DNA of 64,000 nt from Bacillota bacterium (GTDB lineage Bacteria > Bacillota > Limnochordia > Darwinibacteriales > DTU012), in the NCBI GenBank assembly GCA_012840925.1, contig DUVS01000009.1:62001-126000 (forward strand), read 5' to 3'. Numbering within the stretch: position 1 is the first letter of the stretch; each line of letters opens with the position of its first letter. A program made the position numbers and the translations under genes. Below the pieces are notes generated by a model. That model was given only the letters and a program-made list of their open reading frames with translations, did not search any database and was not told the DNA's origin. This document shows positions 1 to 31,773 of this stretch, piece by piece.

Positions 1-2
1 AT

Positions 3-2783
3 TCAAGTTCCGACACGGAGTTGGAGATTGTATCCGGGTTAGGTGGTTATCAGGAAGAAATTCTGATCACCAATGAGTCCGGGTATGTAGAGTGGACTTT
101 TGAAGTTGAACAGGCTGGGTTGTACAATGTTTGCCTTGAATATTATCCGTTGCCGGGGCGTGGGGTAGATATTGAACGTGAGCTTTGGATCAATGGGGAG
201 CGTCCCTTCAACAACGCCCAGTACCTGAAGTTTTACCGGGTATGGGGAGATGAAGGCGATTTTATTGTCGATTCATTAGGCAATCAGATTCGGGCCCGCC
301 AGGTTGAAAAACCACTGTGGATCAAGGAGGCGATCCGAGATCCGATCGGTTATGTCCAGGAACCCTACCTGTTCTATTTTAAAGAGGGCACCAACACGAT
401 GCGCCTGGTGTCGCGGATGGAACCGATGGCCATTGCTGAAATCAAGCTCTACCAGTACCCTCGGATTCCAACTTATGCCGAGGTGAAGCAGGGGTATGAG
501 GAAAAAGGTTTGAAAACTCTTGAGGGCATCGAGCTGAGAATCGAGGGACAGAATAGCACTGTCCGTTCGTCTCCCACATTATTCCCAGTATCTGATCATG
601 GTGATCCGACGGTTCTACCGTACCACCATGCGGAAATCCGCCTCAATTCCATCGGAGGCCACCGCTGGACTCAACCGGGGCAGTGGATTCGCTGGGAAGT
701 TGATGTTCCGGAAGCGGGATTATACAAGATTGCCATTAAGGCAAAACAAAACCAGAAGGTTGGTGCTTTTAGCACCCGCCGGTTGTATATCAACGGTGAA
801 ATTCCTTTTGCCGAGGTTTCGACCATTCCTTTCTATTATTCTACTTACTACCAAATGAATGTCATTGGCGACCCGGTTACTCAAGAACCATACCTGTTCT
901 ACTTCCCTGCCGGCAAGAATGAGATAACACTTGAGGTGGCTTTGGGCGATGTAGCCGATGTGCTTAGCCTTACCGAAGAGCATCTCTATGAGTTGAATAC
1001 GATCTACCGGCGGATCATCATGATTACTACAGGTAATCCTGATCCAATGCGTACTTATGAATTGGACAAAAGAATCCCGGAAGTCATCGAGCAAATTGGT
1101 TTACAAGCACAGATTTACCGGGATCTGGTAGAGCAGTTTGTTGCTGAAACTGGAATGGAGGGGGAACATACCCAGGCCTTGACTCAGATGGCTTTTATCC
1201 TCCAGAGGATGTATGACGATACCGATCGGATTCCTCGCCTGTTATCCGAGTTTAGGGATAATCTGGGTTCTTTAGGCCAGTGGGTTGCCCAAATGAAGGA
1301 GCAGCCGCTGCAGATTGATTTTTTGATGGTGGCCTCGCAGGAAAGAAAAATGCCGCGGGCAGAGCCAACTATCTGGCAATCGTTCCTCCATGAAATCAAA
1401 GCGATTATAGCTTCGTTTTACCGCAACTATGATATGGTAGGCAATATTGGCGATGCGGAAGCCATTGATCAAACCCGGGAGCCTTTGACAGTGTGGATTG
1501 GTTCCGGGCGAGACCAGGCTCAGATTTTGAAACAGTTAATCGATAACGAATTCAGCCCGCAAACCGGGATTCCTGTGAAACTGCAGTTGGTTCCCAACTT
1601 GAGTCAGCTTTTGATTCAAGCTGCCATTGCCAAGACCGCGCCGGATGTTGCCATCGGTATGCATACTCAGGACCCGGTGAATTTTGGAATGCGGGGAGCC
1701 TTGTATAATCTTGCTCAGTTTGAGGATTTCGATGATGTGATGCAGGACTTCATGGTCAGCTCATATGTTCCCTATACTTTCAGGGACAATGTTTGGGCTG
1801 TCGCTGCCCAGCAGTCATTTCCTGTCATGTTCTATCGCAAAGATATTCTCGCAGAACTAGGCCTGGAAGTGCCTCAAACCTGGGATGATGTTTACCGCAT
1901 CCTGCCGATTCTGCAGAAGAATGGTATGTCCATAGGAATCAAACCGTCAATCTTCTATACACTGCTTTATCAGCGGGGAGAATTGGTCTACAAGCCCGAC
2001 GGTGTGGAAACCAATCTTGATTCTGAGGTTGCCATTCAGACCTTTACCGAGTTGACTGAGCTGTTCAGCTTGTACGGACTCTTAGTCACATTCGATACTC
2101 ATAACAGATTCCGGTTTGGCGAGATGCCGATCGTGATCGAGGATTATGGATTGTACAACCGCTTGGCTGTCTTTGCCCCTGAACTGCGGGGAGAATGGGG
2201 ATTTGCTATGGTCCCCGGGACACTGCAGCCTGATGGTACCATTAATCGGACCGTAGTAGGAGTCATGGAAGGGAATCCCATGTCGGTTGACCTGGCAGGA
2301 ATTCAAGGGCCGGCAACAGGCATACTCTCCACAGCTTCTGATCCGGAAGCAGCCTGGGAATTCGTGAAATGGTGGATCAGCGCTCCTACACAGATCCAGT
2401 TTGGCCGTGAACTGGAAAACTTGATGGGCGCTGCAGCCCGCTACCCAACAGCGAACTTAGAGGCCTTTGCCCAACTGCCTTGGACTGCAGAGCAGCGTCA
2501 GATCCTGATGGATCAATGGCATTGGGTTGAAGGGTCATTGGAAGTGCCCGGCGGCTATTATATGGGCCGGATGTTTGACTGGGCCTTCAGGGCTGTTGTT
2601 GTATCCGACGATTTCAAATCGGCACGGGAGACCTTAATCAAATATAACATGGACATCAACTATGAATTGAGGCTGAAGAGACAGGAATTTGGCCTGGAGT
2701 TGGAATTGGATCAGATTCCAGAGGGGTATATCGATGTCTTTTGGTCACGGTTTACTCATATTAAGCGACGGGATCAGTATTGA
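3..2783 (+). CDS. Extracellular solute-binding protein with N-terminal beta-sandwich domains (5' end outside window)
   Basis: This is the substrate-binding subunit of a carbohydrate ABC importer, expected on the cell surface. The frame is open to the left edge, and residues before the first possible start still align with the full-length paralog at 52185-55271, so the N-terminus with its signal peptide lies outside the window. Two beta-sandwich (galactose-binding-like) domains cover about residues 5-160 and 175-320, each with the pattern W-x-[FV]-E-V-x-x-A-G-L-Y. A helical linker follows. From about residue 490 there is a family-1 type binding-protein fold, with VWIGSGRDQA, FYRKDILAELGLEVPQTWDD and a C-terminal AAWEFVKWW motif. 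At about 920 residues it is twice the usual length of a sugar-binding protein. It heads an operon with two permeases; the next gene starts 23 bases downstream. The sugar is unknown; pectic material is suggested only by the GH28 gene further along. Confidence 0.9.
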   Translation, partial: SSSDTELEIVSGLGGYQEEILITNESGYVEWTFEVEQAGLYNVCLEYYPLPGRGVDIERELWINGERPFNNAQYLKFYRVWGDEGDFIVDSLGNQIRARQVEKPLWIKEAIRDPIGYVQEPYLFYFKEGTNTMRLVSRMEPMAIAEIKLYQYPRIPTYAEVKQGYEEKGLKTLEGIELRIEGQNSTVRSSPTLFPVSDHGDPTVLPYHHAEIRLNSIGGHRWTQPGQWIRWEVDVPEAGLYKIAIKAKQNQKVGAFSTRRLYINGEIPFAEVSTIPFYYSTYYQMNVIGDPVTQEPYLFYFPAGKNEITLEVALGDVADVLSLTEEHLYELNTIYRRIIMITTGNPDPMRTYELDKRIPEVIEQIGLQAQIYRDLVEQFVAETGMEGEHTQALTQMAFILQRMYDDTDRIPRLLSEFRDNLGSLGQWVAQMKEQPLQIDFLMVASQERKMPRAEPTIWQSFLHEIKAIIASFYRNYDMVGNIGDAEAIDQTREPLTVWIGSGRDQAQILKQLIDNEFSPQTGIPVKLQLVPNLSQLLIQAAIAKTAPDVAIGMHTQDPVNFGMRGALYNLAQFEDFDDVMQDFMVSSYVPYTFRDNVWAVAAQQSFPVMFYRKDILAELGLEVPQTWDDVYRILPILQKNGMSIGIKPSIFYTLLYQRGELVYKPDGVETNLDSEVAIQTFTELTELFSLYGLLVTFDTHNRFRFGEMPIVIEDYGLYNRLAVFAPELRGEWGFAMVPGTLQPDGTINRTVVGVMEGNPMSVDLAGIQGPATGILSTASDPEAAWEFVKWWISAPTQIQFGRELENLMGAAARYPTANLEAFAQLPWTAEQRQILMDQWHWVEGSLEVPGGYYMGRMFDWAFRAVVVSDDFKSARETLIKYNMDINYELRLKRQEFGLELELDQIPEGYIDVFWSRFTHIKRRDQY

Positions 2784-2806
2784 TAACTAACAATGGGGGA
2801 AGCAAA

Positions 2807-3757
2807 ATGAGTTCAGTTGTGCGCAAGCAGTCCCAAGTTGGAGTAGAAACAAGGCCAGGCAGGCGCTCAGCACTGTTCAAAGAGATGGCTGCTCATAAAA
2901 TCTGTTATCTCTTTCTGGCACCGTATGCGATCCTGTTCATCGTTTTCACAGTTGTGCCTGTGGTGATGGCGATCTTGCTCAGTTTTACTTACTTCAATAT
3001 GCTGCAGCCGCCACAATGGATTGGATTGCATAACTACATCCGCTTGTTTTTGGAAGATGACATTTTCCTGATTGCTGTCAAGAACACTTTGGTCTATGCA
3101 ACGATTACCGGGCCCGTCAGTTATCTGTTGTCCTTTGTAACAGCCTGGTTGATCAACGAACTCAAGCCAAAGGCGAGGGCGTTTCTGACCCTGTTATTTT
3201 ATGCCCCGTCCATCTCAGGAAATGCTTATATGATCTGGCGGATAATCTTTAGCGGTGATACCTATGGAATCATCAACGGATTCCTGATGTACTGGGGCTT
3301 TATTGATGCACCGGTGCAGTGGCTGCTCAATCCAGATTATATTATGCCCCTTGTGATCTTGGTTGTATTGTGGATGAGCATGGGAACAGGATTCTTGGTG
3401 TTCATCGCCGGGCTGCAGGGAATCGATCCCCGGTTATATGAGGCTGGCGCTATTGACGGAGTGAGAAACCGGTGGCAGGAGCTGTGGTATTTGACTTTGC
3501 CGCAGATGCGGGGCTATCTGATGTTTGGTGCAATCATCACGATTACTTCGTCGTTTACTGTTGCCGGTGAGATCTCCAATCTGGTAGGCTTCCCCAGCAC
3601 AGATTACGCTGCCCATACCATTGTGCAGCATTTGCAGGATTACGGCTCAATCCGCTTCGATATGGGCTATGCCTCTGCAATTGCCGTGATCTTGTTCTTT
3701 ATGATGGTTGTAACGCAAAGGGTTGTTCAGAAGCTGCTGAACAAAGTCGGTGAATAG
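2807..3757 (+). CDS. Sugar ABC transporter permease (MalF/UgpA type)
   Basis: Inner-membrane permease of a carbohydrate importer, 316 residues. I chose the ATG at 2807 because GGGGGA lies about seven bases upstream and the paralog at 55354 begins with the same MSSVV; an in-frame TTG at 2780 overlaps the previous stop and has no ribosome binding site. About six hydrophobic segments are visible, the first near residues 35-60. The cytoplasmic EAA loop that contacts the ATPase begins at about residue 211 (EAGAIDG, then LPQM). It lies between the binding protein and the second permease with gaps of 23 and 12 bases, so it is co-transcribed. No ATPase gene is nearby. Confidence 0.93.
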   Translation: MSSVVRKQSQVGVETRPGRRSALFKEMAAHKICYLFLAPYAILFIVFTVVPVVMAILLSFTYFNMLQPPQWIGLHNYIRLFLEDDIFLIAVKNTLVYATITGPVSYLLSFVTAWLINELKPKARAFLTLLFYAPSISGNAYMIWRIIFSGDTYGIINGFLMYWGFIDAPVQWLLNPDYIMPLVILVVLWMSMGTGFLVFIAGLQGIDPRLYEAGAIDGVRNRWQELWYLTLPQMRGYLMFGAIITITSSFTVAGEISNLVGFPSTDYAAHTIVQHLQDYGSIRFDMGYASAIAVILFFMMVVTQRVVQKLLNKVGE

Positions 3758-3769: not shown

Positions 3770-4639
3770 ATGGCATCGCGATTGAGTATTAGAAAAAGGC
3801 GTTTGGCGCGATCAACCGGTGGTGATCTGGTAATCATGATGTTTTTGCTGATCGGTGGGGCGTTTATGGTGATCCCCATGATCATGATTATCAGTAATGC
3901 ATTCAAGCCGTTAAATGAGCTCTTCTTGTTTCCTCCTCGCCTGATCGTACGCAACCCGACAACGAAGAATTTCCATGATTTGATGGTGATGATGGCCCAG
4001 TCCTGGGTGCCGTTTGGCAGATACCTGCTGAATTCATTAATCATCGTGTTCTTCGGCACGTTGGGGAATGTGTTCTTTGGTTCGTTGGCGGCTTACGTAA
4101 TCTCGATACGCAAAGTTCCGGGAACCAGATTTTTTATGGGAATAGTGATCTTGTCACTAATGTTTTCCTCAGAAGTCACCCGCATCCCTAACTATGTTAC
4201 GATTGCGTGGTTGGGTTGGATCGACTCTCTGAGAGCGATCATTATTCCCCGGTGGTCGTCGTCGATGGGATTGTACTTGATGAAAAACTTCATGGATCAC
4301 ATGATCGACCGCTCACTTGTTGAAGCTGCTGAAATGGATGGAGCTAACGACTTCCGGATTTACTGGCAGATCGTAATGCCCAATGTCAAGCCGGCCTGGC
4401 TGACTATGATCATCTTGCTTTTCCAAGAACTGTGGCGGACACAGGGTGGGCATTACATTTACTCCGAGCAGCTTAAGACTTTGCCGTATGCTTTGAGCCA
4501 GATTACTCAGGGTGGCGTGGCCAGGCAGGGTGTGCAGGCTGCTGTTACCTTAGTGATGATGGTAATCCCCATCATCGTCTTCTTGGTCAACCAGAGCAAG
4601 ATTGTCGATACAATGGGAACTTCAGGAATGGCAAACTAA
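3770..4639 (+). CDS. Carbohydrate ABC transporter permease (MalG/UgpE type)
   Basis: Second inner-membrane permease of module A, 289 residues, pairing with the product of 2807-3757. GGAGGATG lies just upstream of the ATG. The N-terminus is basic (RLSIRKRRLARSTGGD) and is followed by about six membrane segments. The EAA loop begins at about residue 185 (EAAEMDGAN, then VMPNVKP). The end, MGTSGM, is shared with the module A permease at 56310-57176. The next gene starts 14 bases after the stop, so the beta-propeller/Yip1 gene belongs to the same operon. Confidence 0.93.
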   Translation: MASRLSIRKRRLARSTGGDLVIMMFLLIGGAFMVIPMIMIISNAFKPLNELFLFPPRLIVRNPTTKNFHDLMVMMAQSWVPFGRYLLNSLIIVFFGTLGNVFFGSLAAYVISIRKVPGTRFFMGIVILSLMFSSEVTRIPNYVTIAWLGWIDSLRAIIIPRWSSSMGLYLMKNFMDHMIDRSLVEAAEMDGANDFRIYWQIVMPNVKPAWLTMIILLFQELWRTQGGHYIYSEQLKTLPYALSQITQGGVARQGVQAAVTLVMMVIPIIVFLVNQSKIVDTMGTSGMAN

Positions 4640-4653: not shown

Positions 4654-6795
4654 GTGAGGAACTTGAAGTTATTTAAGACCTTTCTGTTTGTATGTATACT
4701 GATGGCCGTGGCATTCATGCCGGTGAGCGCAGTACCATACGAAACTTACACCTATGATTTCTGGAATAATCCTGTACCTTCTCCTCACGCTTATGTACCT
4801 ATTCGAGTTGTGGATGGCCAAGAGTTGGGGATAGGTAGTTTCAGGACACCTCAGGATATTTTTGCCATTGATGACCAGATATACCTGGTTGATTCCGGAA
4901 ACAATCGGATTGTCCACATGACCCGCGACTGGGAAGTGGTCAGGATCATTGACAGTTTCGATAACGAAGGCAACCGGGATACCTTCAAAAATCCCAGGGG
5001 TATTCATGTAACACCTGCGGGTGATCTGTATGTAGCCGATCGGGATAACAGCCGGATCGTGATCTTGGATCGGGATCTGAATCTGAAGCAGATCATTACT
5101 TCGCCTGTAGAGACACATGGTCAGTTGTTTACCAGTGATTTCCGCTTTAGGCCTGACAAACTTGGTGTCGATCAGTATGGATCAGTGTATGTGGTTTCGG
5201 CTGGTGTTTATGATGGGATTATGGAGTTTGACATCCATGGAGACTTCCAGGGATTTGTGGGAGCTCCGAGGGTGCATCCAACGTTGGCTGATTATATCTG
5301 GCGTTTGATTGGGACCAAGGCTCAAAAGGAGCGCATGAAATTATTCCTGCCGGTTGAACACAGCAATGTTCATGTGGATAGACGTGGGTTTATCTACGCA
5401 ACAGCCATCGGGGGAGAGATCGGCCCGGAAGACAAGATTCGCCGGATCAACACCGCCGGTTCAGATCGCTTGATGCGGATACCCGGTTCGCCGCCGATAG
5501 GTGATTTCCCGGATGTCACCAGTTCAGTTTTTGTGGACGTTGTCAGCCGCGAATATGACAGCTATTCAATTTTGGATCGGACAAATGGCCGGATCTTCAC
5601 ATACAACGCAACAGGGCATCTGCTGTATGCGTTTGGTGCAATCGGGGAAGTCCAGGGGGCATTTTCCAATCCAGCGGGATTGGCTGAATTGGACCAGCAT
5701 CTGCTTGTTGTTGATGCGATCAAGAATAGCATCACTGTATTTGCTCCCACAGAGTATCAGCAGTTAATCCACAATGCCATCGCCAACTATTCAATAGGAA
5801 ACTATGATGCAGCCACCGAGTGCTGGTACCAGGTGTTGGAGCTGAACTCCAACTTCGATCTGGCCTATACCGGTATCGGCAATGCTTACTTCATGCAGGG
5901 CAATTATGCCGAGGCCATGCGCAACTTCAAGCTGGCCAACGATCGCCCTAATTATTCAGAAGCATTTCGCTTTTACCGCAAACAGGTACTGGAAGACTAC
6001 TTCGGCTGGTTGATGGCTGCGGTCGTGATTATAGTCATCTATGTGCTGTTCTTTGCTACATCGAGAAAGAGTGAACAAAGTGTAGCTGAAGCAAAAGCTC
6101 AACAAGCGGCCACATATGATCAGGTCCGAACCTGGGAAGAAATGAAACGGCGGCCGCTCGGGATCCAGCTGAAGCGGATTGGATATGGACTGCAGTTTGC
6201 CCTAAAGGTCATAGTCAGTCCGCTGCAGGGTTTCTGGGATCTAAAATATGAGAAACGGGGTAATCTGCCTACTGCGGTTGTGCTGATCATTATGTTGGTT
6301 CTGTCTTACCTGGTGATGTATCAGTTCAGCGGGTTTATTTTCAACACCCGCAATCCCCGGTATCTGAACCTGGTATCTGAATCGGTGAGTATTCTGGTGC
6401 CGATTCTGATGTGGGTTACCATTAACTGGTCGTTGACAACACTGATGAATGGCAAAGGCTCCTATAAAGAAATTCTGATAGCCACGGCATATTCGTTTAC
6501 ACCACTGATTCTGGTATTGATACCGATGACCATCATCAGCAATTACTTGACTGCAGATGAGGGAGCGTTTTACTACCTGATTATGTCCATAGCCCTGGTA
6601 TGGTCATTGATGCTGCTCTTCTTTGGTACCATGGTTGTTCATGAATACAGCCTTGGTGCCACTATCGGAGTCACCATCTTCATTTTGGTCGGAATGGGCA
6701 TTACCATGTTTATCGCTTTGTTGTTTGTGGATATCGTTTTACAGTTATTTGCCTTCATTGGAGAAGTCTATCGCGAATTCGCCTTCAGGTTGTAG
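4654..6795 (+). CDS. NHL-type beta-propeller, TPR and Yip1-domain membrane protein
   Basis: A 713-residue membrane protein of unknown function. GTG at 4654 is chosen because GGAGG ends five bases before it; an in-frame TTG at 4642 lies upstream of that site. The order is: signal peptide (about 1-25); six-bladed NHL-like propeller (about 55-360) with repeats such as IYLVDSGNNRIVHM and LYVADRDNSRIVIL; two TPR-like helical hairpins (about 370-435); one membrane segment (about 450-470); then a Yip1-type bundle of about five membrane helices (about 510-713) preceded by GFWDLKYEKRG. The propeller and TPR would face outside. The gene at 25849-28050 has the same architecture, and both are followed directly by a DUF5696 gene and two permeases. 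A role in sensing or docking polysaccharide for the importer is inference from context. Confidence 0.88.
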   Translation: MRNLKLFKTFLFVCILMAVAFMPVSAVPYETYTYDFWNNPVPSPHAYVPIRVVDGQELGIGSFRTPQDIFAIDDQIYLVDSGNNRIVHMTRDWEVVRIIDSFDNEGNRDTFKNPRGIHVTPAGDLYVADRDNSRIVILDRDLNLKQIITSPVETHGQLFTSDFRFRPDKLGVDQYGSVYVVSAGVYDGIMEFDIHGDFQGFVGAPRVHPTLADYIWRLIGTKAQKERMKLFLPVEHSNVHVDRRGFIYATAIGGEIGPEDKIRRINTAGSDRLMRIPGSPPIGDFPDVTSSVFVDVVSREYDSYSILDRTNGRIFTYNATGHLLYAFGAIGEVQGAFSNPAGLAELDQHLLVVDAIKNSITVFAPTEYQQLIHNAIANYSIGNYDAATECWYQVLELNSNFDLAYTGIGNAYFMQGNYAEAMRNFKLANDRPNYSEAFRFYRKQVLEDYFGWLMAAVVIIVIYVLFFATSRKSEQSVAEAKAQQAATYDQVRTWEEMKRRPLGIQLKRIGYGLQFALKVIVSPLQGFWDLKYEKRGNLPTAVVLIIMLVLSYLVMYQFSGFIFNTRNPRYLNLVSESVSILVPILMWVTINWSLTTLMNGKGSYKEILIATAYSFTPLILVLIPMTIISNYLTADEGAFYYLIMSIALVWSLMLLFFGTMVVHEYSLGATIGVTIFILVGMGITMFIALLFVDIVLQLFAFIGEVYREFAFRL

Positions 6796-6811
6796 CAGGG
6801 AGGAAGCCATA

Positions 6812-9529
6812 ATGAAAATGCTTAAGCAATCAGGGGTTTTAATCTTACTACTAGTGCTGTCCTTGTTTGCTGCTGTGGATGCTAGTGCAGCTGTGGAGAT
6901 TAAAGGGTATGAATTTGTAACCGAAAACGAATATTTGAGCCTGTTTTTCAATCCCGAAACTGCTGAGGTAGCAGTTTATGATCAGCGTACTGAGCAGTTT
7001 TGGTTCACTAATCCCCAGAACCGGGCGAAGTTTGAAACCATTGCTCGCGGCGCAGCCAAGGATGCGCTGGCAGCCCAACTGCGGATCACATACTATGAGC
7101 CCGGCGACGTGATGCGGACAATGGACAGCTACAACGATAGTGTCAGTTATGGCCAGTTTGAAGTACAGCCTATCGATGGTGGAATTCGCGTTGAATTTGT
7201 CTTTGGCAAAGAGTGGGAAGACAAGTATTATTTGCCTCTCATAGTTGAAAAGGAATTATTTGAAACAGAGTTCTTCAGCAAACTGGATTCAAGTGCGCAG
7301 CGCACGATTTCCGGTTTGTATGCCCTGGTGGGAGTGGGTGAACCTGGAGAAGGTGAGACGGCCAATATTGCAGGCAAGTATGTGATTCAAGATGTTGGCG
7401 GAACTCTGGCATCACGGGATATGCGCGTGATTCATAATGTTTTTCTTGATCATGTAGTTAGCTATAAATCAAATCTGTCAGCACCTGGAGATGTGAAGCC
7501 GGAAGATGTGGAATCGTTTATTGATAAACCATTTTACATGCTCAAACAGCGGGAGCGGGATATGCTCAGCTGGGATAAAACCGCAGTGATTGATATTACT
7601 CGTTCGGTCGGTTTTGATCCTTTCGTCATTGGTGCAGGTTACGAGATTTATAATCTGGAAGCAGGAAAACCAAACATTTTGATCTTCAAAGTGCCTATTG
7701 AGTATCGCCTTGATGGCGAGAATTTGCTTGTCAATGTGGACACATCGGGGATCGAGTATCCTCTTAATGAAACCAACGCCGAAGGGAAAAAGGTAACCTA
7801 CATTTTGACACAAATTGATGTACTGCCCTATTTCTCCGCAGGCGAAAGGGGTACCAACGGGTATATGTTTGTACCCGATGGCACCGGATCGATCATTTAC
7901 TTTGACAATGGCAAGACACATTTCAACCCTTACACAAGGAGAGTCTACGATCAGGATCATGCCGTCAGCGTGCCCCCTATGAACGTTAATACCTATTTTA
8001 ACATTTTTCCAGTTTTCGGAATCAAACATGAAGACAGGGCGTTGTTCGCTATTGTGGAAGCTGGTGCCACTATTTGCCGGTTGAATGCCGATATTTCCGG
8101 CAGAAGGATCTCGTACAATACGATTTATCCTTCATTTGCGATCTTTGAACGGACCACCTCGTCGCTGCAGGGCGATATGCCTGATATCCATGGAGCCTCA
8201 GCCCAGTGGGTTGTCAGCGGAGGCGGCTCCATCAATGTGTACCAGCCGAAGATGTATGATCAAGATATTCAAATCCGGTATGCATTCCTTGGGGAATCCC
8301 AGGCCGATTATGTCGGGATGGCCCACTACTATCAGGATTATCTGGTGAATAACGGAATGCTGCAAAAGCTTCAGCCTCATTCGGGGATTCCGTTGATGCT
8401 GGAGATTATTGGCGCCGTACAGGATCGGCGTCCCATATTGGGTGTTCCCAGGGATGTATTGGTACCGATGACTACCTTTGCCCAAGCCAGATCATTTGTA
8501 TCTCAGCTGCATGCCAAAGGAATTACCAACCTCCATGTTGCCTACAATGGTTGGATGAAAAACGGCGTTAGCCATTATTATCCCGATACAGCGAGACTTG
8601 AGTCGAAGTTAGGGACTGAAGCAGAGTTTGTTGAACTGCACAAGCTGATCACCGCTAACGGCGGCAGCTTATACCCAGCAGTTAGTTTTCAACATGTCAA
8701 ATATGATCGGATGTTTGATACATTCTTCTCCATCCGGGATGGTTCCCGATCGTTGGTCCGGACTATCGCCACCAGTGTTGATCCCGTGACTATGCTGCCG
8801 TTTTATATTCTCTCCCCGGCGAAACTGGACCAGCTGGTTGACAGTTATTTAGCTTCGCAAAAGCGCTACCAGCTTTCAGGTATTCATCTGTCTGACTTGG
8901 CCAGCCGGCTGTATGGTGATTACCGCAGAGACAGGGTAGTGCTGCGGGAAAATGCCATCGAGATCATAACACGACAGTTGTCTAAGATCACTGAGGGTTA
9001 CGGGCTTAAGATTCAATCCAATGGGATTCATGCCTATGCTGTGCCTTATGTATCGAGCATTATCAATTTGCCGTTAGAGCACAGCGGTATTGATATCACG
9101 GATGAAGCGGTGCCATTCGTCCCGATTGTACTGCATGGATATATAGATTATGCCGGGGAACCGCTAAACCGGGTCGGCGATTACCGCGATTACATGTTGA
9201 AAATGATGGAACTGGGAGCTTATCCTTATTTCCAGGTATTTGGAACTGAAGCAAGCGTGCTGAAAGGCAGTCTCTATTCCGACTTTTACACCGGCGAATT
9301 CAGCAAGGCTGCGGAGGACATCGTCAGAGTATATCATGAATTGGACAGTGCGCTTAAATCCATCCAGGATCAGAGGATCATTGATCATCGGCAGCTCGAA
9401 GACCGAGTGTTCCTAACGGTGTACGAAAATGGTGTCCAGATTGTCATCAATTACAATCTGGAGTCGGTTGACATAGACGGAGAGCAGATCGCACCGAAGA
9501 GTTACCGAGTATTCGAGGGGGAGAAATAG
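6812..9529 (+). CDS. DUF5696-family secreted protein
   Basis: A 905-residue exported protein of the DUF5696 type, function not established. ATG at 6812 follows AGGGAGGA by seven bases and starts a clear signal peptide (about 1-27, ending ASAA). An N-terminal beta-rich half of about 450 residues contains GYMFVPDGTGSII. The C-terminal half (about 520-850) alternates strands and helices in a way that resembles a TIM-barrel glycosidase. Acidic positions shared with the paralog at 28076 include the D of LSDLAS and the E of GTEASVLK. The ending RIIDHRQLEDRVFLTVYENG is also shared. It starts 16 bases after the Yip1 gene and its stop abuts the next permease. A glycoside hydrolase or polysaccharide-binding role is inference only. 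Confidence 0.85.
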   Translation: MKMLKQSGVLILLLVLSLFAAVDASAAVEIKGYEFVTENEYLSLFFNPETAEVAVYDQRTEQFWFTNPQNRAKFETIARGAAKDALAAQLRITYYEPGDVMRTMDSYNDSVSYGQFEVQPIDGGIRVEFVFGKEWEDKYYLPLIVEKELFETEFFSKLDSSAQRTISGLYALVGVGEPGEGETANIAGKYVIQDVGGTLASRDMRVIHNVFLDHVVSYKSNLSAPGDVKPEDVESFIDKPFYMLKQRERDMLSWDKTAVIDITRSVGFDPFVIGAGYEIYNLEAGKPNILIFKVPIEYRLDGENLLVNVDTSGIEYPLNETNAEGKKVTYILTQIDVLPYFSAGERGTNGYMFVPDGTGSIIYFDNGKTHFNPYTRRVYDQDHAVSVPPMNVNTYFNIFPVFGIKHEDRALFAIVEAGATICRLNADISGRRISYNTIYPSFAIFERTTSSLQGDMPDIHGASAQWVVSGGGSINVYQPKMYDQDIQIRYAFLGESQADYVGMAHYYQDYLVNNGMLQKLQPHSGIPLMLEIIGAVQDRRPILGVPRDVLVPMTTFAQARSFVSQLHAKGITNLHVAYNGWMKNGVSHYYPDTARLESKLGTEAEFVELHKLITANGGSLYPAVSFQHVKYDRMFDTFFSIRDGSRSLVRTIATSVDPVTMLPFYILSPAKLDQLVDSYLASQKRYQLSGIHLSDLASRLYGDYRRDRVVLRENAIEIITRQLSKITEGYGLKIQSNGIHAYAVPYVSSIINLPLEHSGIDITDEAVPFVPIVLHGYIDYAGEPLNRVGDYRDYMLKMMELGAYPYFQVFGTEASVLKGSLYSDFYTGEFSKAAEDIVRVYHELDSALKSIQDQRIIDHRQLEDRVFLTVYENGVQIVINYNLESVDIDGEQIAPKSYRVFEGEK

Positions 9530-10456
9530 ATGAGCAGAAAGCGTAGGAGCCGTCTCAGTCTACGGACACGGGAAGCAATTAATGGGCATCTCTTTACCCT
9601 GCCATTTGTGATTGGGTTTATTCTGATGTTTCTATTCCCGTTCATTCAATCAATGATGTTCAGTCTCAGCAAACTGGAGATTAGTTCACAAGGGTATACA
9701 CTGACCTGGACTGGATTGGAGAATTACCACAATGCCCTCTTTATCAATGCCGAGTATCCGCGGTTGTTGCTGGAAACGGCCGTGCAGATGCTCAGAGATG
9801 TTCCTTTGATCCTGGTGTTCAGTTTCTTTGCATCGATCTTGTTGAATCAGCAGTTTAAAGGCCGTTTGTTTGCTCGTGTTGTCTTTTTCCTTCCCGTCAT
9901 TCTTTCGGCTGACATCATCCTACGCATGGAAAGTGCGGATTATATCTCTGCTTTTCTTGATGCGTCATTAGCTGAAGAAGCAGCGAGCCAAGGAACTTTA
10001 GGCACCATCTTCAGCCGGGGTCAGCTGGTCAGTTTGTTGATGTATATGAAGCTTCCACAGCAGCTGGTGACTTATATTGTCACCGGTTCGGAGCAAATTG
10101 CCACGATAATCCGTTCCTCAGGCGTGCAGATTTTGATCTTTTTGGCTGGTCTGCAGTCTATATCGCCTTCGTTGTTTGAAGTTGCCAAAATAGAGGGAGC
10201 GACTGGTTGGGAGTGTTTCTGGATGATCACTTTCCCAATGTTAAGTCCACTGATTGTCACCAATATCGTTTACAGCATAATAGATTTCTTTACAATTCCT
10301 TCAAACCCGTTGGTTGACTTTATTGAATCCAATATGTTTGGAGGGGCGGGATATGGAGTGGCTATGGCCATGAGCTGGCTTTACTTTGTCTTTATCGCTC
10401 TGTTCCTGCTGTTGACTGCCGGGTTGATTTCCCGCAGAGTAGTTTACATGGAGTAA
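9530..10456 (+). CDS. Sugar ABC transporter permease (MalF/UgpA type)
   Basis: First permease of module B, 308 residues. The ATG follows the stop of the DUF5696 gene with no gap, which implies translational coupling; GGGGAG before that stop serves as ribosome binding site. It has a basic N-terminus and about six membrane segments. The EAA loop is degenerate, starting near residue 217 (EVAKIEGATGWECFW), where the usual AA-DGA is relaxed. Its counterpart in cluster II (30859-31755) has the same degenerate loop (EASQVEGATGWENFW). That marks the two as a subfamily separate from the module A permeases. Confidence 0.92.
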   Translation: MSRKRRSRLSLRTREAINGHLFTLPFVIGFILMFLFPFIQSMMFSLSKLEISSQGYTLTWTGLENYHNALFINAEYPRLLLETAVQMLRDVPLILVFSFFASILLNQQFKGRLFARVVFFLPVILSADIILRMESADYISAFLDASLAEEAASQGTLGTIFSRGQLVSLLMYMKLPQQLVTYIVTGSEQIATIIRSSGVQILIFLAGLQSISPSLFEVAKIEGATGWECFWMITFPMLSPLIVTNIVYSIIDFFTIPSNPLVDFIESNMFGGAGYGVAMAMSWLYFVFIALFLLLTAGLISRRVVYME

Positions 10457-10474
10457 GGCAGGGGGGATGATGTT

Positions 10475-11383
10475 ATGAAACGCAAGTATGTGATAGGTTT
10501 TATAATCGGGATCCTCAGGTATCTGGTTATCGTCAGTATCTGTTATGTGATCCTAAGGCCACTGCTGGCCAAGATTGTGTCATCATTCATGATGGAACAG
10601 GACCTTTATGATCAAACTGTCAAATGGATTCCCCGTAACTTTACTTTGGAGAACTACCGGGCGATGTATGTGCACATGAAGTACTTGATTGCTTTGCGCA
10701 ACTCCCTGGCCTTTTCCCTACTGATTGCTTTGCTGCAGTTGGCATCTTGTACTTTGGTAGGCTATGGTTTGGCCCGGTTCCGGTTCCGGGCTGCAAAACT
10801 GATTTTTGCCTTGGCTATTTTTACATTGATTGTACCGCCGCAGATTATCATTCTGCCATTGTATCTCAATTTCCGTTTCTTTTCGATTCCATTTGTTATG
10901 CCGAAGCCGGGCATTAATTTGTTGGACAGCATCTGGCCATTTGTATTCATGGCCGCCAGCGGTACAGGGTTTAACAATGGCTTGTTTATCTATATCATGC
11001 GCCAATTCTTTAAGAATTCACCAAAGTCTTTGGAAGAAGCGGCTTACATTGATGGTGCCAATGCCATGCAGACATTCGTGCGGGTAATGCTTCCAGGCGC
11101 GGTTCCGGCATTGGTAATCGTCTTTCTGTTTGCCTTTGTCTGGCAGTATAATGATTATTTCTTTACCGGAATGTACTGGTCCAAAGCTGTGCTGCTGTCC
11201 CATACCCTGGACGTTGCTGCTGCAAACTATGCATATTCATTGGGGACTCACTTCCGGGGCCATTATATTTCTCTGTTAAACAACACCGGAATGATTCTCT
11301 TTATTCTACCGTTGCTTGTCTTGTTCGGATTCACGCAGCGCTACTTCATTGAAAGCGTGGAGCGTACGGGCATAGTGGGATAA
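10475..11383 (+). CDS. Carbohydrate ABC transporter permease (MalG/UgpE type)
   Basis: Second permease of module B, 302 residues, partner of 9530-10456. A GGGGGG run lies eight bases before the ATG. About six membrane helices are visible, and the EAA loop starts near residue 188 (EAAYIDGANAMQTF, then MLPG). The C-terminus QRYFIESVERTGIVG closely matches that of the permease at 31774-32739. The binding-protein gene follows after 97 bases that contain a short leader ORF. Confidence 0.93.
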   Translation: MKRKYVIGFIIGILRYLVIVSICYVILRPLLAKIVSSFMMEQDLYDQTVKWIPRNFTLENYRAMYVHMKYLIALRNSLAFSLLIALLQLASCTLVGYGLARFRFRAAKLIFALAIFTLIVPPQIIILPLYLNFRFFSIPFVMPKPGINLLDSIWPFVFMAASGTGFNNGLFIYIMRQFFKNSPKSLEEAAYIDGANAMQTFVRVMLPGAVPALVIVFLFAFVWQYNDYFFTGMYWSKAVLLSHTLDVAAANYAYSLGTHFRGHYISLLNNTGMILFILPLLVLFGFTQRYFIESVERTGIVG

Positions 11384-11412
11384 TGTATCCTGCATCAAGG
11401 GGCGGAGGTGAT

Positions 11413-11478
11413 ATGACAGATCAAGACGTTCAGTATCTGTTAGAAACTTCGGAGTTTCAATTATCAAGGAGGTATTGA
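11413..11478 (+). CDS. Possible 21-codon leader ORF before the binding-protein gene
   Basis: GGAGGTGAT, a full match to the 16S rRNA tail, sits directly before an ATG that opens 21 codons (begins MTDQDVQYLL, ends LSRRY). The TGA lies two bases before the ATG of the next gene, so the leader covers that gene's own AAGGAGGT site. This layout suits translational coupling or attenuation. There is no homology evidence, and expression is unproven. Confidence 0.4.
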   Translation: MTDQDVQYLLETSEFQLSRRY

Positions 11479-11480
11479 TA

Positions 11481-12806
11481 ATGAAAAAACGCATTTTGGT
11501 TGTTGGGTTAATCGTGGGTTTACTGGCCTTGGGCAGTACAGCACTGGCCTATGATCTGACCCAGTTTGGTCTGCAGCCAGCAGAAAACTATGACTTTGGC
11601 GGTGAGACTGTAACAATCATTTCTTGGACAAGCGAAAGAATGGCCAATTACTTTAACGATAACTTGCTGGTCCTGGGCCGTGTCCAAGAAGCAGAAGAGC
11701 TGTTTAACTGCAAGATCGACTTTATGCAAAACCGGGAAATTCCAGACATAAACTTTGCCCGGTTGTTATCAGGTGATTCAGTAAACGATTTATGGCATGT
11801 ACAGAACAAGATCGGTTATTGGCAGTTGGTGGCCAACGATGCTCTGTATCCGATCTATGAGATCCTACCGGAGGGATATTATGACGCTTTTCCACCCGGT
11901 ATCCTGGCAGTAGAAGAAGCTTTCAAATATAACGGCCAATATTGGGGTATTGGTACAGTTGAATACCGGCCAGTATTTGGTTACCAAAACGACTTGATTT
12001 TCGTAGCTTACAACAAGACCCTCTTTGAACGGGAAGGCTTGCCGGATCCATATGAGCTGTACTTAGCCGGAGAATGGACATGGGATGCCGCTACCGATAT
12101 CGCAGTTAAGGCCACCAGAGATCTTGACGGCGATGGTGAAACGGATCAATGGGGTATTGTCGATGCTCGTCAATGGGATCTGGCTGTATCAAATGGTGCC
12201 AGCATGGTTCGCGTTGACGAAAACGGAAAAGTTGTCTTTACGGCAGATGAGCCTGCTTATCTGGAAGCGCTGGAGCAACATCGGGAGTGGTGGAGTGAAC
12301 TGCAGGTTGCAATGCCCACCAACTCTTCGGGTGACTTGAAAAATGCCTTTATCAATGGCAATGCCGCTATGTGGTTCTACGCCGGTGCCTGGCAGCTGCC
12401 TGACCTGATGCCGATGACCGATGAATGGGTACTGGTACCTTATCCGAAAGGGCCAAGAGTTGATGAGCATCAATGGACAGTGCAGGCTATCAGCACCACT
12501 GTACTGCCGGTAAATGCCAAGAATCCAGAAGCTCTGATCGCCTTGAAGACTTTCCTGTGGCGGGAAGAGGATGCTCCACTAAACGATGTTCTGGCGACTC
12601 ATGTCCGCAACCAGGAATCTGCTCAGGTGTTCCTCGAAGGCAACCGTGCCTGGTCCGGAAATGTTTCGAGGATGTTTGAATCATTCCAGGCAACCTTTGT
12701 TGATGATGTTCGCCAGGTATCTGCAGGCAGTCTGAGCCCGTCTGCAGCCATGGCCGCCTTAAAACCTGTAGTGCAGGCAAATCTTGACGATTTGTTCGGC
12801 CAATAA
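11481..12806 (+). CDS. Extracellular solute-binding protein (sugar ABC transporter)
   Basis: Binding protein of module B in cluster I, 441 residues. ATG at 11481 is seven bases from AAGGAGGT; an in-frame TTG two codons earlier is less likely. A signal peptide covers about residues 1-23 (ending ALA). The mature start, with YDFGGETVTI, matches the DFGGKTVTI seen in the three cluster II binding proteins. A calcium-loop-like DLDGDGETD lies at about 214-222. The C-terminus has the MAALKPVVQANLDDLFGQ helix shared by this subfamily. Partner permeases are 9530 and 10475. A 10-bp hairpin follows the stop. Confidence 0.93.
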   Translation: MKKRILVVGLIVGLLALGSTALAYDLTQFGLQPAENYDFGGETVTIISWTSERMANYFNDNLLVLGRVQEAEELFNCKIDFMQNREIPDINFARLLSGDSVNDLWHVQNKIGYWQLVANDALYPIYEILPEGYYDAFPPGILAVEEAFKYNGQYWGIGTVEYRPVFGYQNDLIFVAYNKTLFEREGLPDPYELYLAGEWTWDAATDIAVKATRDLDGDGETDQWGIVDARQWDLAVSNGASMVRVDENGKVVFTADEPAYLEALEQHREWWSELQVAMPTNSSGDLKNAFINGNAAMWFYAGAWQLPDLMPMTDEWVLVPYPKGPRVDEHQWTVQAISTTVLPVNAKNPEALIALKTFLWREEDAPLNDVLATHVRNQESAQVFLEGNRAWSGNVSRMFESFQATFVDDVRQVSAGSLSPSAAMAALKPVVQANLDDLFGQ

Positions 12807-12895: not shown

Positions 12896-14287
12896 GTGGT
12901 TTTGGAATCTATGTACATAAATGAACCCGTATTCCCAGACTACACCGTGAATATTGCCGACTTCGGTGCCGTTTGCGACGGGAGAACTTTGAACACCGAT
13001 GCGATCAATGCAGCAATCGCTGCCTGTGCCGGCCAAGGCGGGGGAAGGGTGGTCATACCGCGGGGATTGTGGCTGACGGGGCCGATTATCCTCAAAAGTA
13101 ATATCAACCTGCACTTGGAAACGGGCGCTTTGGTGTTGTTCACACCTGATTACGATCAGTATCCTTTACGAAAAGTGAATCTCAATGGCATTGAGCAGAT
13201 CATGGTTACGCCACCGTTGTTTGGAGAGGGCTTGGATAATATTGCCATCACTGGCAGTGGAATCTTCGATGGTTCGGGACAGTACTGGCGGCCAGTTAAG
13301 AGAATGAAGTTGACCGAAAGGCAATGGCGCAAGTTGGTTGATTCCGGGGGTGTTGTGGATAGTGACGAAAGGATCTGGTGGCCGAATGCTGCCGCCATGC
13401 ATGGTGCCAGGAAGCTTCGGGAATTAGCCAGCCGGAGAGCGCCGCTTGAGGATTATGAATCTGTCAGGGTGTTTCTGCGGCCGCGCCTGATGAACCTGGT
13501 TAACTGTAAGAACGTATTGATCGATGGCCCGATTTTTCAGAATTCGCCCATGTGGAACCTCCATCCTTTGTTATGCGAAAATATCATCATCCGCAATATT
13601 ATGGTCCGCAATCTTTGGCATGCCCAAAACGGCGACGGTTTGGATCTTGAGTCCTGCCGCAACGTGCTTGTGGAAAACTCGATCTTCGATGTCGGCGATG
13701 ATGCGATTTGTCTCAAGTCCGGCAAAGATGAGATTGGCCGCAAGATTGGTGTACCCACCGAGAATGTGATCATTCGTGATTGTAAAGTGTATCACGGCCA
13801 TGGGGGTTTTGTAGTTGGCAGCGAGATGTCTGGTGGAGTAAGGAATGTGACTGTCACCAGATGTGAGTTTATTGGTACCGATGTAGGCCTCCGTTTTAAA
13901 ACTACCAGAGGCCGGGGCGGGGTTGTTGAAAAGATCAAAATCGATCAAATCAATATGATCAATATTGATGGGCCTGCTATCACTTTTGACATGTATTATG
14001 ACGCCGCTCCCGGCAATGAGATTGCCGCTGCGGTTACGGATGCTACTCCTCAGTTCCGGGACGTAGCGATTAGTAAGGTGATCTGCCGGGGTGCAGCAGT
14101 AGGCATCTTTCTGCGGGGTCTTCCAGAAATGCCGATTAGGAAGCTGAAGTTCAACCAGGTTGAGATTACGGCAAGGAAAGGAGTCGTCATGTCAGCTTGT
14201 GAACAGCTGGCTTTCAACGATGTTTTGGTGGAAAATGAACAAGGCCAGATCTTGTTTAACAGTGCAGAACAGAACAATGGCCAGTAG
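12896..14287 (+). CDS. Glycoside hydrolase family 28 (polygalacturonase-like), no signal peptide
   Basis: A right-handed beta-helix pectinase of family GH28, which hydrolyses alpha-1,4-galacturonosyl or related pectic links; 463 residues. Family signatures are present: NGDGLD with Asp247, GDDAICLKSG with Asp268 and Asp269, GHGG with His302, and RFKT with Arg333 and Lys335. GTG at 12896 follows AGGGGTGG by a few bases. The N-terminus enters directly into the fold (NIADFGAVCDGRTLNTDAI) with no hydrophobic leader, so the enzyme should be cytoplasmic and act on imported oligomers, as an exo-enzyme would. It follows the binding-protein gene by 90 bases. The exact substrate (oligogalacturonide or rhamnogalacturonan fragment) cannot be told. 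Confidence 0.9.
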   Translation: MVLESMYINEPVFPDYTVNIADFGAVCDGRTLNTDAINAAIAACAGQGGGRVVIPRGLWLTGPIILKSNINLHLETGALVLFTPDYDQYPLRKVNLNGIEQIMVTPPLFGEGLDNIAITGSGIFDGSGQYWRPVKRMKLTERQWRKLVDSGGVVDSDERIWWPNAAAMHGARKLRELASRRAPLEDYESVRVFLRPRLMNLVNCKNVLIDGPIFQNSPMWNLHPLLCENIIIRNIMVRNLWHAQNGDGLDLESCRNVLVENSIFDVGDDAICLKSGKDEIGRKIGVPTENVIIRDCKVYHGHGGFVVGSEMSGGVRNVTVTRCEFIGTDVGLRFKTTRGRGGVVEKIKIDQINMINIDGPAITFDMYYDAAPGNEIAAAVTDATPQFRDVAISKVICRGAAVGIFLRGLPEMPIRKLKFNQVEITARKGVVMSACEQLAFNDVLVENEQGQILFNSAEQNNGQ

Positions 14288-14375
14288 GATGCATCCATTA
14301 AGACGGGTGTACCCTGTGATACCGGAGTCGTACTTTCGGTTTATGAAGACTAGACTATTAGAAAGGAGTCAAGAG

Positions 14376-15359: not shown

Positions 15360-15423
15360 AATAGCACAGGTGCAACACAGTGTTTGGCAAGAAATGTACC
15401 AATATCTCTATAGGAGGCTCAAT

Positions 15424-25848: not shown

Positions 25849-28050
25849 TTGAGACCAAGTGGAACCAAAATGACGCCAGTTTATTTATTGCCAGTACTCG
25901 TATTGGGGTTGCTGATTTTCTTGAGTGCCGCAGTATTGGCTGTAGAACCGCTGGTCGTACCATATGAAAGCTATACTTATGATTTTTGGGGTTGGCCCGT
26001 ACCAGCACCACAAGCATACTTGCCAGTACGGATGATGACCGGTTTGGATATGGGTGCCGAACCATTGTCCAATCCCCAGGATATCACCGTTGTGGGTGAC
26101 AGAATTTATATTTTGGATACAGGTAAGCATCGCATTATTGAGCTGGATGAGAATTTCCAGTTTGTCCGTGCAATCACTCAGTTCCAGAATGGCGATGTCG
26201 TTGACAAGTTTGGTTCACCTGAAGGGTTTTTTGTAACTCAAGATGGTACGTTTTACATTGCTGATACAGCCAAAGAACGGGTTGTCATACTGGACAACGA
26301 TGGGAACTTGATTGATCTGATCACTTCTCCGCACGTGGACTATCCGGATTTCTTCCCAGATCGCTTTGTGTTCAGACCGCGCAAAATCGGCGTAGATTAT
26401 GTCGGCCGGATCTACGTAATTGCCCAGGACCTTTATGATGGTATCGTGGTGTTAAACAATGATGGTGAGTTTACAGGGTTCGTCGGTGCGCCTAAGGTGA
26501 AGCGGTCGGCGCTGGAGCTGTTCTGGAGTTACATCCAATCAGATGAACAGCGTAAACGCAGTCAATTGTACCTGCCGATTGAATACGCCAGTATTGATGT
26601 TGACCGGGAAGGTTTCATATATGCAGTAGTGGCTGGACCCGCAGAAGATGAAGCTCTGAAGAAACTGAATCCGGCAGGTATGGATATTATTACGCGTTCC
26701 GGTTTTGTTCCGATGCGGGGCGATTCAGCTGTACGTTTTGACAAAGATGAGGAAAATGATACCAGAAGCCGGTTTGTGGATGTAATAGGCCGCGAATGGG
26801 GCATGGTCAGTGTGCTGGATCGGCAAAGAGGCCGGATCTTTACCTATGACGGGCAGGGAAATCTGCTCTATGTCTTCGGTGGTATTGGTGATGCGATCGG
26901 GTTGTTTACCCGTCCGCAAGCCATAACAACCCGCGGAGATCAAATACTGGTTCTCGATGCCGATGGAAGGCTTACCTTGTTTGAGCCGACCAACTATGCC
27001 CGGTTGATTCACAGTGCCTTGGAGTATTATGATGGCGGTCACTATAAACGCTCAACTGAGATTTGGCAGGAGCTGACCAGGATTAATCCCAACCTGGATT
27101 TGGCACACACTGGTATTGGCAGGGCGTTGTTCTATGATGGCCACTATGAGGAAGCTATGACATCATTTAGGCATGGCCAAAACCGTTCCGGTTACTCGCA
27201 GGCATATGCCAAGTATCGCCAGTATTGGGTTAACGATCACTTTAGATGGGTAGCCTGGTCAATCATTCTCTTTTTCCTGATAGTATACTTGATAGCCAAG
27301 TATCACGTTTTGGGCCGGCTCAAGCGAGCCATTGGCCGAAGGATAGTGAAGAGTTGGGCTGAATCAGCAGCTACTGCCACTTACATGGGTGTACCGATCA
27401 GGGATACGCGTACGTTCAAAGCCCTTTTCCTAAGAACACTGGACGCCTTGCGTTATGCATTGCATGTGATTTTCCATCCCTTTGATGGTTTTTGGGACTT
27501 GAAGTATGAAAAGCGGGGTACAGTGGGAGCTGCGAATGTTCTCCTGCTTCTGACCATCTTGGCTTGGGTGTTTATGCGGCAGTACACTGCTTTCATCTTT
27601 AATAAGCTTCAGGTGCAGTACGTGAATATCTACTCCGAAGCTTCGAGTATCCTGATTCCGGTGCTGCTGTGGTGTACATGTAACTGGGCTTTGACCACTT
27701 TGATGGAGGGCAAAGGCACATTCAAAGACATCTACATTGCCACTGCATACGCTTTGACTCCATTGATTTTGATTTTTGTACCGGTAACTTTGATCAGTCA
27801 TTTTCTGATTGAAATTGAAGGATCTTTCATAGCCCTGGCAATTTGGATAGCTCTGGTCTGGATGGCAGGCCTGCTGTTTGTAGGTACAATGGTGACTCAC
27901 GAGTATTCGGGTGTCAAAACCATTCTTACCTCCATTTCAACCATTGCCGGTATCGCTATTGTCTTGTTTATCATGCTGCTGTTTACCAGCTTGGTCAGCC
28001 AAGTGATTGGATTTGTCTATAAGCTGTATATAGAGATCGCCTTTAGGTGA
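25849..28050 (+). CDS. NHL-type beta-propeller, TPR and Yip1-domain membrane protein (cluster II)
   Basis: A 733-residue paralog of 4654-6795 with the same order: signal peptide (about 1-34), propeller (about 60-370; IYILDTGKHRIIEL, FYIADTAKERVVIL), TPR-like hairpins (about 380-445; LDLAHTGIGRALFYDGHYEEA), one membrane segment (about 465-485), then a Yip1-type membrane bundle introduced by GFWDLKYEKRG. The TTG start has AAGGGGAG upstream; a later ATG (25870) has a weaker site. The mature N-terminus VPYESYTYDFWGWPVPAPQAY is almost the same in both paralogs, which points to a conserved contact. The DUF5696 gene follows at once. Confidence 0.88.
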   Translation: MRPSGTKMTPVYLLPVLVLGLLIFLSAAVLAVEPLVVPYESYTYDFWGWPVPAPQAYLPVRMMTGLDMGAEPLSNPQDITVVGDRIYILDTGKHRIIELDENFQFVRAITQFQNGDVVDKFGSPEGFFVTQDGTFYIADTAKERVVILDNDGNLIDLITSPHVDYPDFFPDRFVFRPRKIGVDYVGRIYVIAQDLYDGIVVLNNDGEFTGFVGAPKVKRSALELFWSYIQSDEQRKRSQLYLPIEYASIDVDREGFIYAVVAGPAEDEALKKLNPAGMDIITRSGFVPMRGDSAVRFDKDEENDTRSRFVDVIGREWGMVSVLDRQRGRIFTYDGQGNLLYVFGGIGDAIGLFTRPQAITTRGDQILVLDADGRLTLFEPTNYARLIHSALEYYDGGHYKRSTEIWQELTRINPNLDLAHTGIGRALFYDGHYEEAMTSFRHGQNRSGYSQAYAKYRQYWVNDHFRWVAWSIILFFLIVYLIAKYHVLGRLKRAIGRRIVKSWAESAATATYMGVPIRDTRTFKALFLRTLDALRYALHVIFHPFDGFWDLKYEKRGTVGAANVLLLLTILAWVFMRQYTAFIFNKLQVQYVNIYSEASSILIPVLLWCTCNWALTTLMEGKGTFKDIYIATAYALTPLILIFVPVTLISHFLIEIEGSFIALAIWIALVWMAGLLFVGTMVTHEYSGVKTILTSISTIAGIAIVLFIMLLFTSLVSQVIGFVYKLYIEIAFR

Positions 28051-28075
28051 GATGGGTAGAAGGGAGCTGACAGTT

Positions 28076-30862: not shown

Positions 30863-31755
30863 GGCGTTTCAGGTTGACGTTGCGTCAAAGAGACAATGTT
30901 TATGGATATATCTTTATCCTGCCATTTGTGATCGGCTTTATGCTGTTCGTATTGGCACCGGTGATTCAATCGATTATTCTCAGTATTACTGAAGTAACAA
31001 TTACCTCTACCGGGTTTGAGACAACTTATATCGGGTTTGAAAACTATTACTTTGCTCTGCGGGTGCATGCAGATTTCTTGCGCCAGCTGGTTGAAGTAAT
31101 GGGTATCATGCTTTTGAATGTATTCTGGATTTTGGTATTCAGTTTCTTTGCCGCCCTGTTGTTGAACCAGAAATTTCCGGGACGGCTGATCTTCAGAATC
31201 ATATTCTTCCTGCCGGTGGTCATGGCCTCAGGTGTGATTCTGCAGCTTGAGATTCAGGACTATATGATGGCCATCATTGGTGAGCAAGTTGTCGAAAACT
31301 ACTCCTTTGTTGATTTTCAAGTGTTGGCAACGTTCTTGATGCGGTTACAGGTTCCCGACAAATTCATGGAGTACATCGCCAGGGCTGTCGACGGAATCGC
31401 CAACATTATCAACGCATCAGGAATTCAAATCCTGATTTTCCTGGCAGGGCTGCAATCAATTCCGCCTTCACTTTACGAGGCGTCACAAGTTGAGGGAGCT
31501 ACGGGATGGGAGAATTTCTGGCTGATAACTTTGCCGATGGTCAGTCCCTTGATTCTGACTAATATCATCTATACGATCATTGACTTCTTCATCTCAACGT
31601 CAAACTCTCTGATCCAGTTGATTCGCAATACCACCACTCAGGGTGCTGGTTTTGGAGTAAGTGCAGCGATGTCCTGGATTTATTTCGCAGCCATCTGTGT
31701 CGTATTAGGAATTGTCTACTTGATCTTCAATAGATTGGTATTCTACCATGAATAA
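30859..31755 (+). CDS. Sugar ABC transporter permease (MalF/UgpA type, cluster II)
   Basis: A 298-residue permease closely related to 9530-10456. The GTG start overlaps the DUF5696 stop (GTGA), with GGGAGG upstream. About six membrane helices are visible, and the EAA loop near residue 207 (EASQVEGATGWENFW, then LPMV) is degenerate in the same way as its cluster I counterpart. It pairs with the next gene. Confidence 0.92.
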   Translation: MRRFRLTLRQRDNVYGYIFILPFVIGFMLFVLAPVIQSIILSITEVTITSTGFETTYIGFENYYFALRVHADFLRQLVEVMGIMLLNVFWILVFSFFAALLLNQKFPGRLIFRIIFFLPVVMASGVILQLEIQDYMMAIIGEQVVENYSFVDFQVLATFLMRLQVPDKFMEYIARAVDGIANIINASGIQILIFLAGLQSIPPSLYEASQVEGATGWENFWLITLPMVSPLILTNIIYTIIDFFISTSNSLIQLIRNTTTQGAGFGVSAAMSWIYFAAICVVLGIVYLIFNRLVFYHE

Positions 31756-31773
31756 TTGCTGGGAGGTTTAGAA

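Follow-up and report, generated by a model that had tools for sequence, protein, structure and literature searches.

A textbook ATP-binding cassette (ABC) sugar importer consists of a binding protein, two permeases and an ATPase. We analyzed a sugar-import locus in a 64,000-nucleotide stretch of DNA from a Bacillota bacterium (assembly GCA_012840925.1, contig DUVS01000009.1, positions 62,001 to 126,000 of the forward strand; hereafter the window), located on contig C51 of a 1.72-Mb metagenome-assembled genome that is 94% complete. Like the importers of the CUT1 family (MalEFGK2, and MsmEFGK with its shared MsmX-type ATPase), the locus encodes MalF/MalG-type permease pairs with EAA-type motifs and SBP_bac_1 solute-binding proteins (SBPs), with a MalK-type ATPase encoded separately. 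Unlike those importers, it has an obligate pair of further proteins, one with NHL, TPR and Yip1 domains (NTY) and one of the DUF5696 family, and its operon adds another permease pair and a binding protein carrying two jelly-roll domains. The permease pairs are referred to as F1/G1 and F2/G2, and the binding proteins as SBPbig and SBP2.

Other described systems resemble parts of this locus. In its modeled fold, the DUF5696 protein is similar over its full length to glycoside hydrolase (GH) families GH129 (NagBb, PDB 5wzn; ZgGH129/DagB, PDB 5opq) and GH101, but unlike GH129 it has no Pfam GH129 match, does not conserve the acid/base glutamate and shows a fixed link to an importer. Catalytic candidates described for GH129 are Asp486, Glu517, Glu531 and, from the other monomer, Asp202 in ZgGH129, and Asp435 in NagBb (PMC5698469). 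NTY recalls YknW of the Bacillus YknWXYZ system in family and genetic setting, both being Yip1 membrane proteins whose genes accompany those of an ABC transporter. YknW modulates the assembly of the transporter YknXYZ (PMC4887032, PMC4338810), which is an exporter, whereas NTY has an NHL propeller and a TPR region and is linked to the import of sugars. As in the polysaccharide utilization loci of Gram-positive bacteria, a regulator, an ABC importer and glycosidases share one locus, but this type of importer is not described in the literature found. No paper mentioning DUF5696 was found in the literature searched, and a literature search for Yip1 or NHL together with sugar importers gave no relevant paper.

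The central result is that NTY, DUF5696 and F2/G2 form an obligate, inseparable gene unit inside a larger sugar-import operon, which is firmly supported by gene order within the host genome and across the phylum. Each of the seven DUF5696 genes of the host genome lies immediately between NTY upstream and F2/G2 downstream, and SBP2 accompanies six of these cassettes. The genome holds eight Yip1 genes, and the eighth NTY sits where a 3.3-kb contig ends. Among 299 genomes sampled across the phylum, DUF5696 exceeded its cut-off in 26; an F2 profile scored more than 200 bits in precisely these 26, with ordinary permeases then reaching at most 159 bits, and NTY (E ≤1e-20) was found in the same 26 genomes plus one with a partial propeller only. 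Since the three proteins mark the same genomes, DUF5696 and NTY are partners of one permease subfamily. The 26 genomes span about 16 to 21 genera and are not independent samples, so we report counts and no probabilities. Weak DUF5696 matches in other genomes scored 18–25 bits, and the two inspected by eye were other glycoside-hydrolase-like proteins.

The same coupling was seen in a set of 120 loci, composed of 80 from a DUF5696 profile search (Paenibacillus, Cohnella, Mahella, Lachnospiraceae, Treponema and uncultured Bacillota) and 40 from genomes sampled evenly across the phylum, with some records in both. Upstream of DUF5696, NTY was missing only at contig ends, after tblastn had recovered one copy masked by the open reading frame (ORF) picker; downstream, every case of a missing F2 fell within 310 bp of a contig end. 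Median gaps were 13 bp for G1-NTY (77 junctions), 14 bp for NTY-DUF5696 (114) and −4 bp for DUF5696-F2 (115). The initial annotation had proposed that the two proteins are wired into a sugar ABC importer, and had named as a check whether DUF5696 and Yip1 genes occur mostly apart from importers. The proposal is borne out by the 120 loci and by the 299 phylum genomes, in which the genes are never apart except at contig ends. A chance neighborhood was rejected on the same grounds, with coupling in 7/7 cassettes of the host genome and in 26/26 genomes of the phylum sample. A distance-correlation (mirror-tree) comparison, in which NTY was not included, gave r of 0.86–0.94 for every gene pair compared and was not discriminating. 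Large plasmids also carry the cassette, namely Butyrivibrio fibrisolvens pNP243 (L175) and a Paenibacillus cellulosilyticus plasmid (L176); in the latter, ugpC immediately precedes the cassette and several flavin-dependent oxidoreductases follow it.

Within the window the cassette occurs twice, and the relevant genes are as follows.

1..2783, forward strand: SBPbig, 1027 aa, two jelly-roll CBM35/Golvesin_C-like domains and SBP_bac_1; starts about 300 bp before the window (L022:11700-14783)
2780..3757, forward strand: F1, MalF-type permease
3770..4639, forward strand: G1, MalG-type permease
4654..6795, forward strand: NTY copy 1, GTG start (Pfam, AlphaFold2 model, Foldseek, hydropathy)
6812..9529, forward strand: DUF5696 copy 1, predicted exported protein of GH129 fold (Pfam 5e-180, AlphaFold2 model, VIA, HHalign)
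9530..10456, forward strand: F2 copy 1, permease subfamily confined to DUF5696 genomes
10475..11383, forward strand: G2 copy 1, MalG-type permease
11475..12806, forward strand: SBP2 copy 1, solute-binding protein (phmmer likeness to copy 2 SBPs)
12896..14287, forward strand: GH28, polygalacturonase-like, adjoining copy 1
25849..28050, forward strand: NTY copy 2 (Pfam)
28052..30862, forward strand: DUF5696 copy 2 (Pfam 2e-169)
30859..31755, forward strand: F2 copy 2
31756..32739, forward strand: G2 copy 2
32807-34150, 34331-35632 and 35877-37187, forward strand: three tandem SBP genes of copy 2
52185-55271, 55354-56298 and 56310-57176, forward strand: orphan SBPbig-F1-G1 set lacking both NTY and DUF5696; its homologs are the three leading genes of copy 1

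The five-gene order NTY-DUF5696-F2-G2-SBP, read initially as occurring twice, is present in both cassettes by coordinates and Pfam. For copy 2 the core order stands but the single binding protein does not, as three paralogous SBP genes behind one permease pair occupy 32807-37187; up to six SBP ORFs in tandem are seen in related digester genomes (L135). Nor does the five-gene limit hold for copy 1, which is a real cassette but extends upstream with SBPbig, F1 and G1, making the operon a seven- to eight-gene unit with two permease pairs that starts upstream of the window. The minimal core of the cassette is NTY-DUF5696-F2-G2, which F1/G1, SBPbig and one or more SBP2 genes usually accompany. Within it the junctions are tight, as had been claimed, at +16, 0 and +18 bp in copy 1 and +1, −4 and 0 bp in copy 2, and the G1-NTY gap of copy 1 (14 bp) is equally tight; the claim fails for the wider G2-SBP spacing of 91 bp in copy 1 and 67 bp in copy 2. 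The commonest orders among the 120 loci are SBP2-SBPbig-F1-G1-NTY-DUF5696-F2-G2 and SBPbig-F1-G1-NTY-DUF5696-F2-G2-SBP2, and one of the host-genome cassettes other than copy 1 (L021) is likewise preceded by SBPbig-F1-G1.

The import components have the features expected of CUT1 proteins. Pfam BPD_transp_1 was found in the window permeases, with both F2 proteins under the curated cut-off, and an E[AV]...[DE]G...P motif is present in all four copy 1 permeases. A strict EAA-type expression matched 95 of 111 G2, 70 of 115 F2 and 81 of 84 G1 sequences and 6 of 85 F1 sequences, the window F1 having an EAG form. SBP_bac_1 was detected in SBPbig and the copy 2 SBPs; SBP2 of copy 1 had no Pfam match at 1e-3 and was recognized by phmmer at 216 and 191 bits to the copy 2 SBPs. 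The jelly-roll regions of SBPbig, ahead of SBP_bac_1, were identified from a repeated alignment pattern and weak CBM35 and Golvesin_C matches.

Structure prediction shows a GH129 glycosidase fold for DUF5696 over its full length. An AlphaFold2 model built from 62 sequences (mean pLDDT 92) matched NagBb with a VIA Z of 29.8 (571 residues, 4.0 Å) and ZgGH129 with a Z of 29.7; GH101 (Z ~20) and other α-glycosidase barrels (18–20) followed. Foldseek aligned the model with GH129 structures over nearly its full length (E 5e-31), and profile comparison gave an hmmsearch value of 5e-9 and an HHalign probability of 98.5% (E 1.9e-15), the match being collinear through the C-terminal β domain at ~16–17% identity. 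The barrel recognized earlier in the C-terminal half is a GH129-like fold, which covers the whole protein. The GH129 profile PF11308 had no match in the host genome, and a Pfam scan of the window DUF5696 proteins returned PF18952 only. PF11308 also had no match in the 299 phylum genomes, from which no absence is inferred as no control genome matched, and a search for GH129 relatives on plasmids with a ZgGH129 fragment as query found nothing. Membership of DUF5696 in GH129 was rejected, since the fold fits but the family profile and the acid/base glutamate do not.

The GH129 sequences were taken from printed alignments, and the catalytic residues were mapped by hand through the (W/Y)-A-V-P / W-I-P motif onto an alignment of 121 DUF5696 sequences. 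NagBb Glu478, its acid/base residue, and ZgGH129 Glu517 both map to column 737, where serine (32), asparagine (22), aspartate (22) and threonine (13) together account for 89 sequences and glutamate for 12. By strand position and motif, the nucleophile falls at column 695, at the end of barrel strand 4, with aspartate in 77/121; by HHalign it falls near column 703, with aspartate in 110/121. Asp695 is paired with Glu737 in a single sequence and Asp703 with Glu737 in seven. Near-invariant residues are Trp581, Asn740 (His in the window copy), Asp703, Arg712 and Asn786. Such a residue pattern is consistent with a sugar pocket that is conserved but lacks canonical GH129 catalysis. The initial annotation had DUF5696 process or hold the glycan and, as the GH129 acid/base residue is not conserved, holding is better supported than processing.

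Alternatively, DUF5696 might be a working glycosidase on the membrane side whose catalytic residues have changed and which removes a capping residue from oligosaccharides just before import. The full-length GH129 fold, with active enzymes as the nearest structures, the strong conservation of pocket residues Trp581, Asn740, Asp703 and Asp764, and the adjoining glycosidase genes all speak for such an enzyme. We nevertheless consider it unlikely, although the most credible of the alternatives, given the replacement of the acid/base glutamate in most sequences, the lack of a conserved glutamate in the nearby columns tested and the presence of a residue other than aspartate at position 695 in 44/121. 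In addition, one conserved protein beside very different enzyme sets ill suits a narrow exo-glycosidase.

NTY is predicted to be an integral membrane protein with a large extracytoplasmic part. Pfam detected NHL, TPR and Yip1 domains in both window copies, with Yip1 (PF04893) at E ~1e-13 and above its cut-off in all eight host-genome matches. The mature N-termini, described initially as nearly identical, are similar between the copies (VPYETYTYDFWNNPVPSPHAYVP in copy 1 and VPYESYTYDFWGWPVPAPQAYLP in copy 2). Copy 1 consists of a signal peptide, an NHL propeller (~32-365), TPR (367-428), a transmembrane segment (~447-470), a charged cytoplasmic linker and the Yip1 part, for which hydropathy indicates ~5 transmembrane segments. 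An AlphaFold2 model (pLDDT 87.6) likewise contains the propeller, a short TPR, one transmembrane helix, the linker and the Yip1 helices, and the best Foldseek matches of the propeller were the NHL domains of Trim71, Thin and Lin41. From the predicted signal peptide and transmembrane layout, the propeller and TPR are expected outside the cytoplasm. In many loci NTY is encoded by adjacent NHL-TPR (~490 aa) and Yip1 (~207 aa) genes, as annotated on the Butyrivibrio fibrisolvens plasmid, and in others, including the Paenibacillus cellulosilyticus plasmid, it is fused, suggesting a joint function of the two halves.

A propeller/TPR outside the cytoplasm linked to a multi-transmembrane domain resembles a receptor, and regulators adjoin many cassettes, so NTY and DUF5696 could be a sensor of glycan or transporter state that signals inward and not transport subunits. 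This appears improbable, as Pfam shows no enzymatic or DNA-binding domain in NTY and the link to the F2 subfamily is strict, whereas the upstream regulators vary (LacI, AraC, GntR and two-component systems).

The operon has no ATPase gene, and the host genome encodes exactly one TOBE_2 ATPase (386 aa, MalK/MsmX type); ugpC adjoins one cassette, that of Paenibacillus cellulosilyticus. The host genome encodes an Omp85 homolog (G000:C2:24378-25259, L174), by which this Bacillota-related organism probably has an outer membrane. No lipobox was found in the window SBP2 N-termini, and one is present in 36/40 Paenibacillus SBP2 proteins. Downstream of cassettes across loci lie genes for GH26, GH38, GH9, fucosidase, GH43 and GH20, and near the host-genome cassettes are GH28, GH42, fucosidase, apiosidase-like and arabinofuranosidase genes. 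A pectic substrate, suggested earlier, was rejected as a general one because the flanking enzymes differ between loci. The constancy of the importer beside varying enzymes suggests a general module for taking up oligosaccharides, in which SBP2 and perhaps also DUF5696 select the substrate.

The assembly of the jelly-roll SBP, the barrel and both permease pairs into one complex for long polysaccharides, as in the Sphingomonas alginate system, would suit the two permease pairs per operon, the jelly-roll binding protein and the large accessory barrel but is very improbable, since the permeases have ordinary CUT1 lengths, there is no size evidence, SBPbig/F1/G1 are missing from many of the 120 cassettes and glycosidases adjoin the loci.

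As the overall explanation we slightly prefer an oligosaccharide importer of CUT1 type whose two obligate accessory subunits are an NTY scaffold and a mostly non-catalytic DUF5696. NTY would be an integral membrane scaffold, with propeller/TPR outside the cytoplasm and Yip1 in the membrane, that helps to assemble F2/G2 with the exported DUF5696, whose GH129-type pocket would hold or order the glycan at the permease mouth, mostly without GH129 catalysis. SBP2 would deliver oligosaccharides to F2/G2, SBPbig with F1/G1 would deal with the same or a related glycan, and the permeases would be powered by the single MalK/MsmX-type ATPase of the host. We infer in this model the scaffold role of NTY, the non-catalytic gripping by DUF5696, the ATPase pairing and the cooperation of both permease pairs. 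The narrower proposal that a glycosidase fold has become a mostly non-catalytic, glycan-gripping importer subunit, bound to the permease by the NTY scaffold, is held tentatively, at a little under even chances. Several points weigh against the model. Shared gene order is by itself no proof of physical contact. With two candidate nucleophile columns, the GH129 mapping is ambiguous and DUF5696 may use an altered catalytic mechanism. SBPbig/F1/G1 also occur without NTY/DUF5696 (52185-57176), which indicates that this half can stand alone, and are missing from some cassettes, which makes their part in the system less certain.

Further genes flank the two cassettes. After GH28, about eight small same-strand ORFs (14160-21467) mostly have N-terminal transmembrane or signal segments; a Big_2 domain occurs in the first, and some are weakly similar to one another or to SBPbig. 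Directly past the copy 2 SBPs (37302-39980) lie a DUF4956 gene, a VTC-domain gene and a gene for a protein with leucine-rich repeat and Lamin-tail domains.

The cassette is carried by many soil, rumen and digester bacteria. Because the importer's channel is always accompanied by NTY and DUF5696, it probably grips glycans in a manner unlike that of ordinary importers. If a whole permease subfamily, widespread in Bacillota and present in Treponema, is always accompanied by two further proteins, it would represent a type of importer not yet described and, if the proposed model is true, one that has extracytoplasmic subunits in addition to its binding protein. The model would also assign a testable role to DUF5696 and to a Yip1 protein of bacteria, and would offer a handle for predicting the glycans taken up by Paenibacillus and by rumen and digester bacteria.

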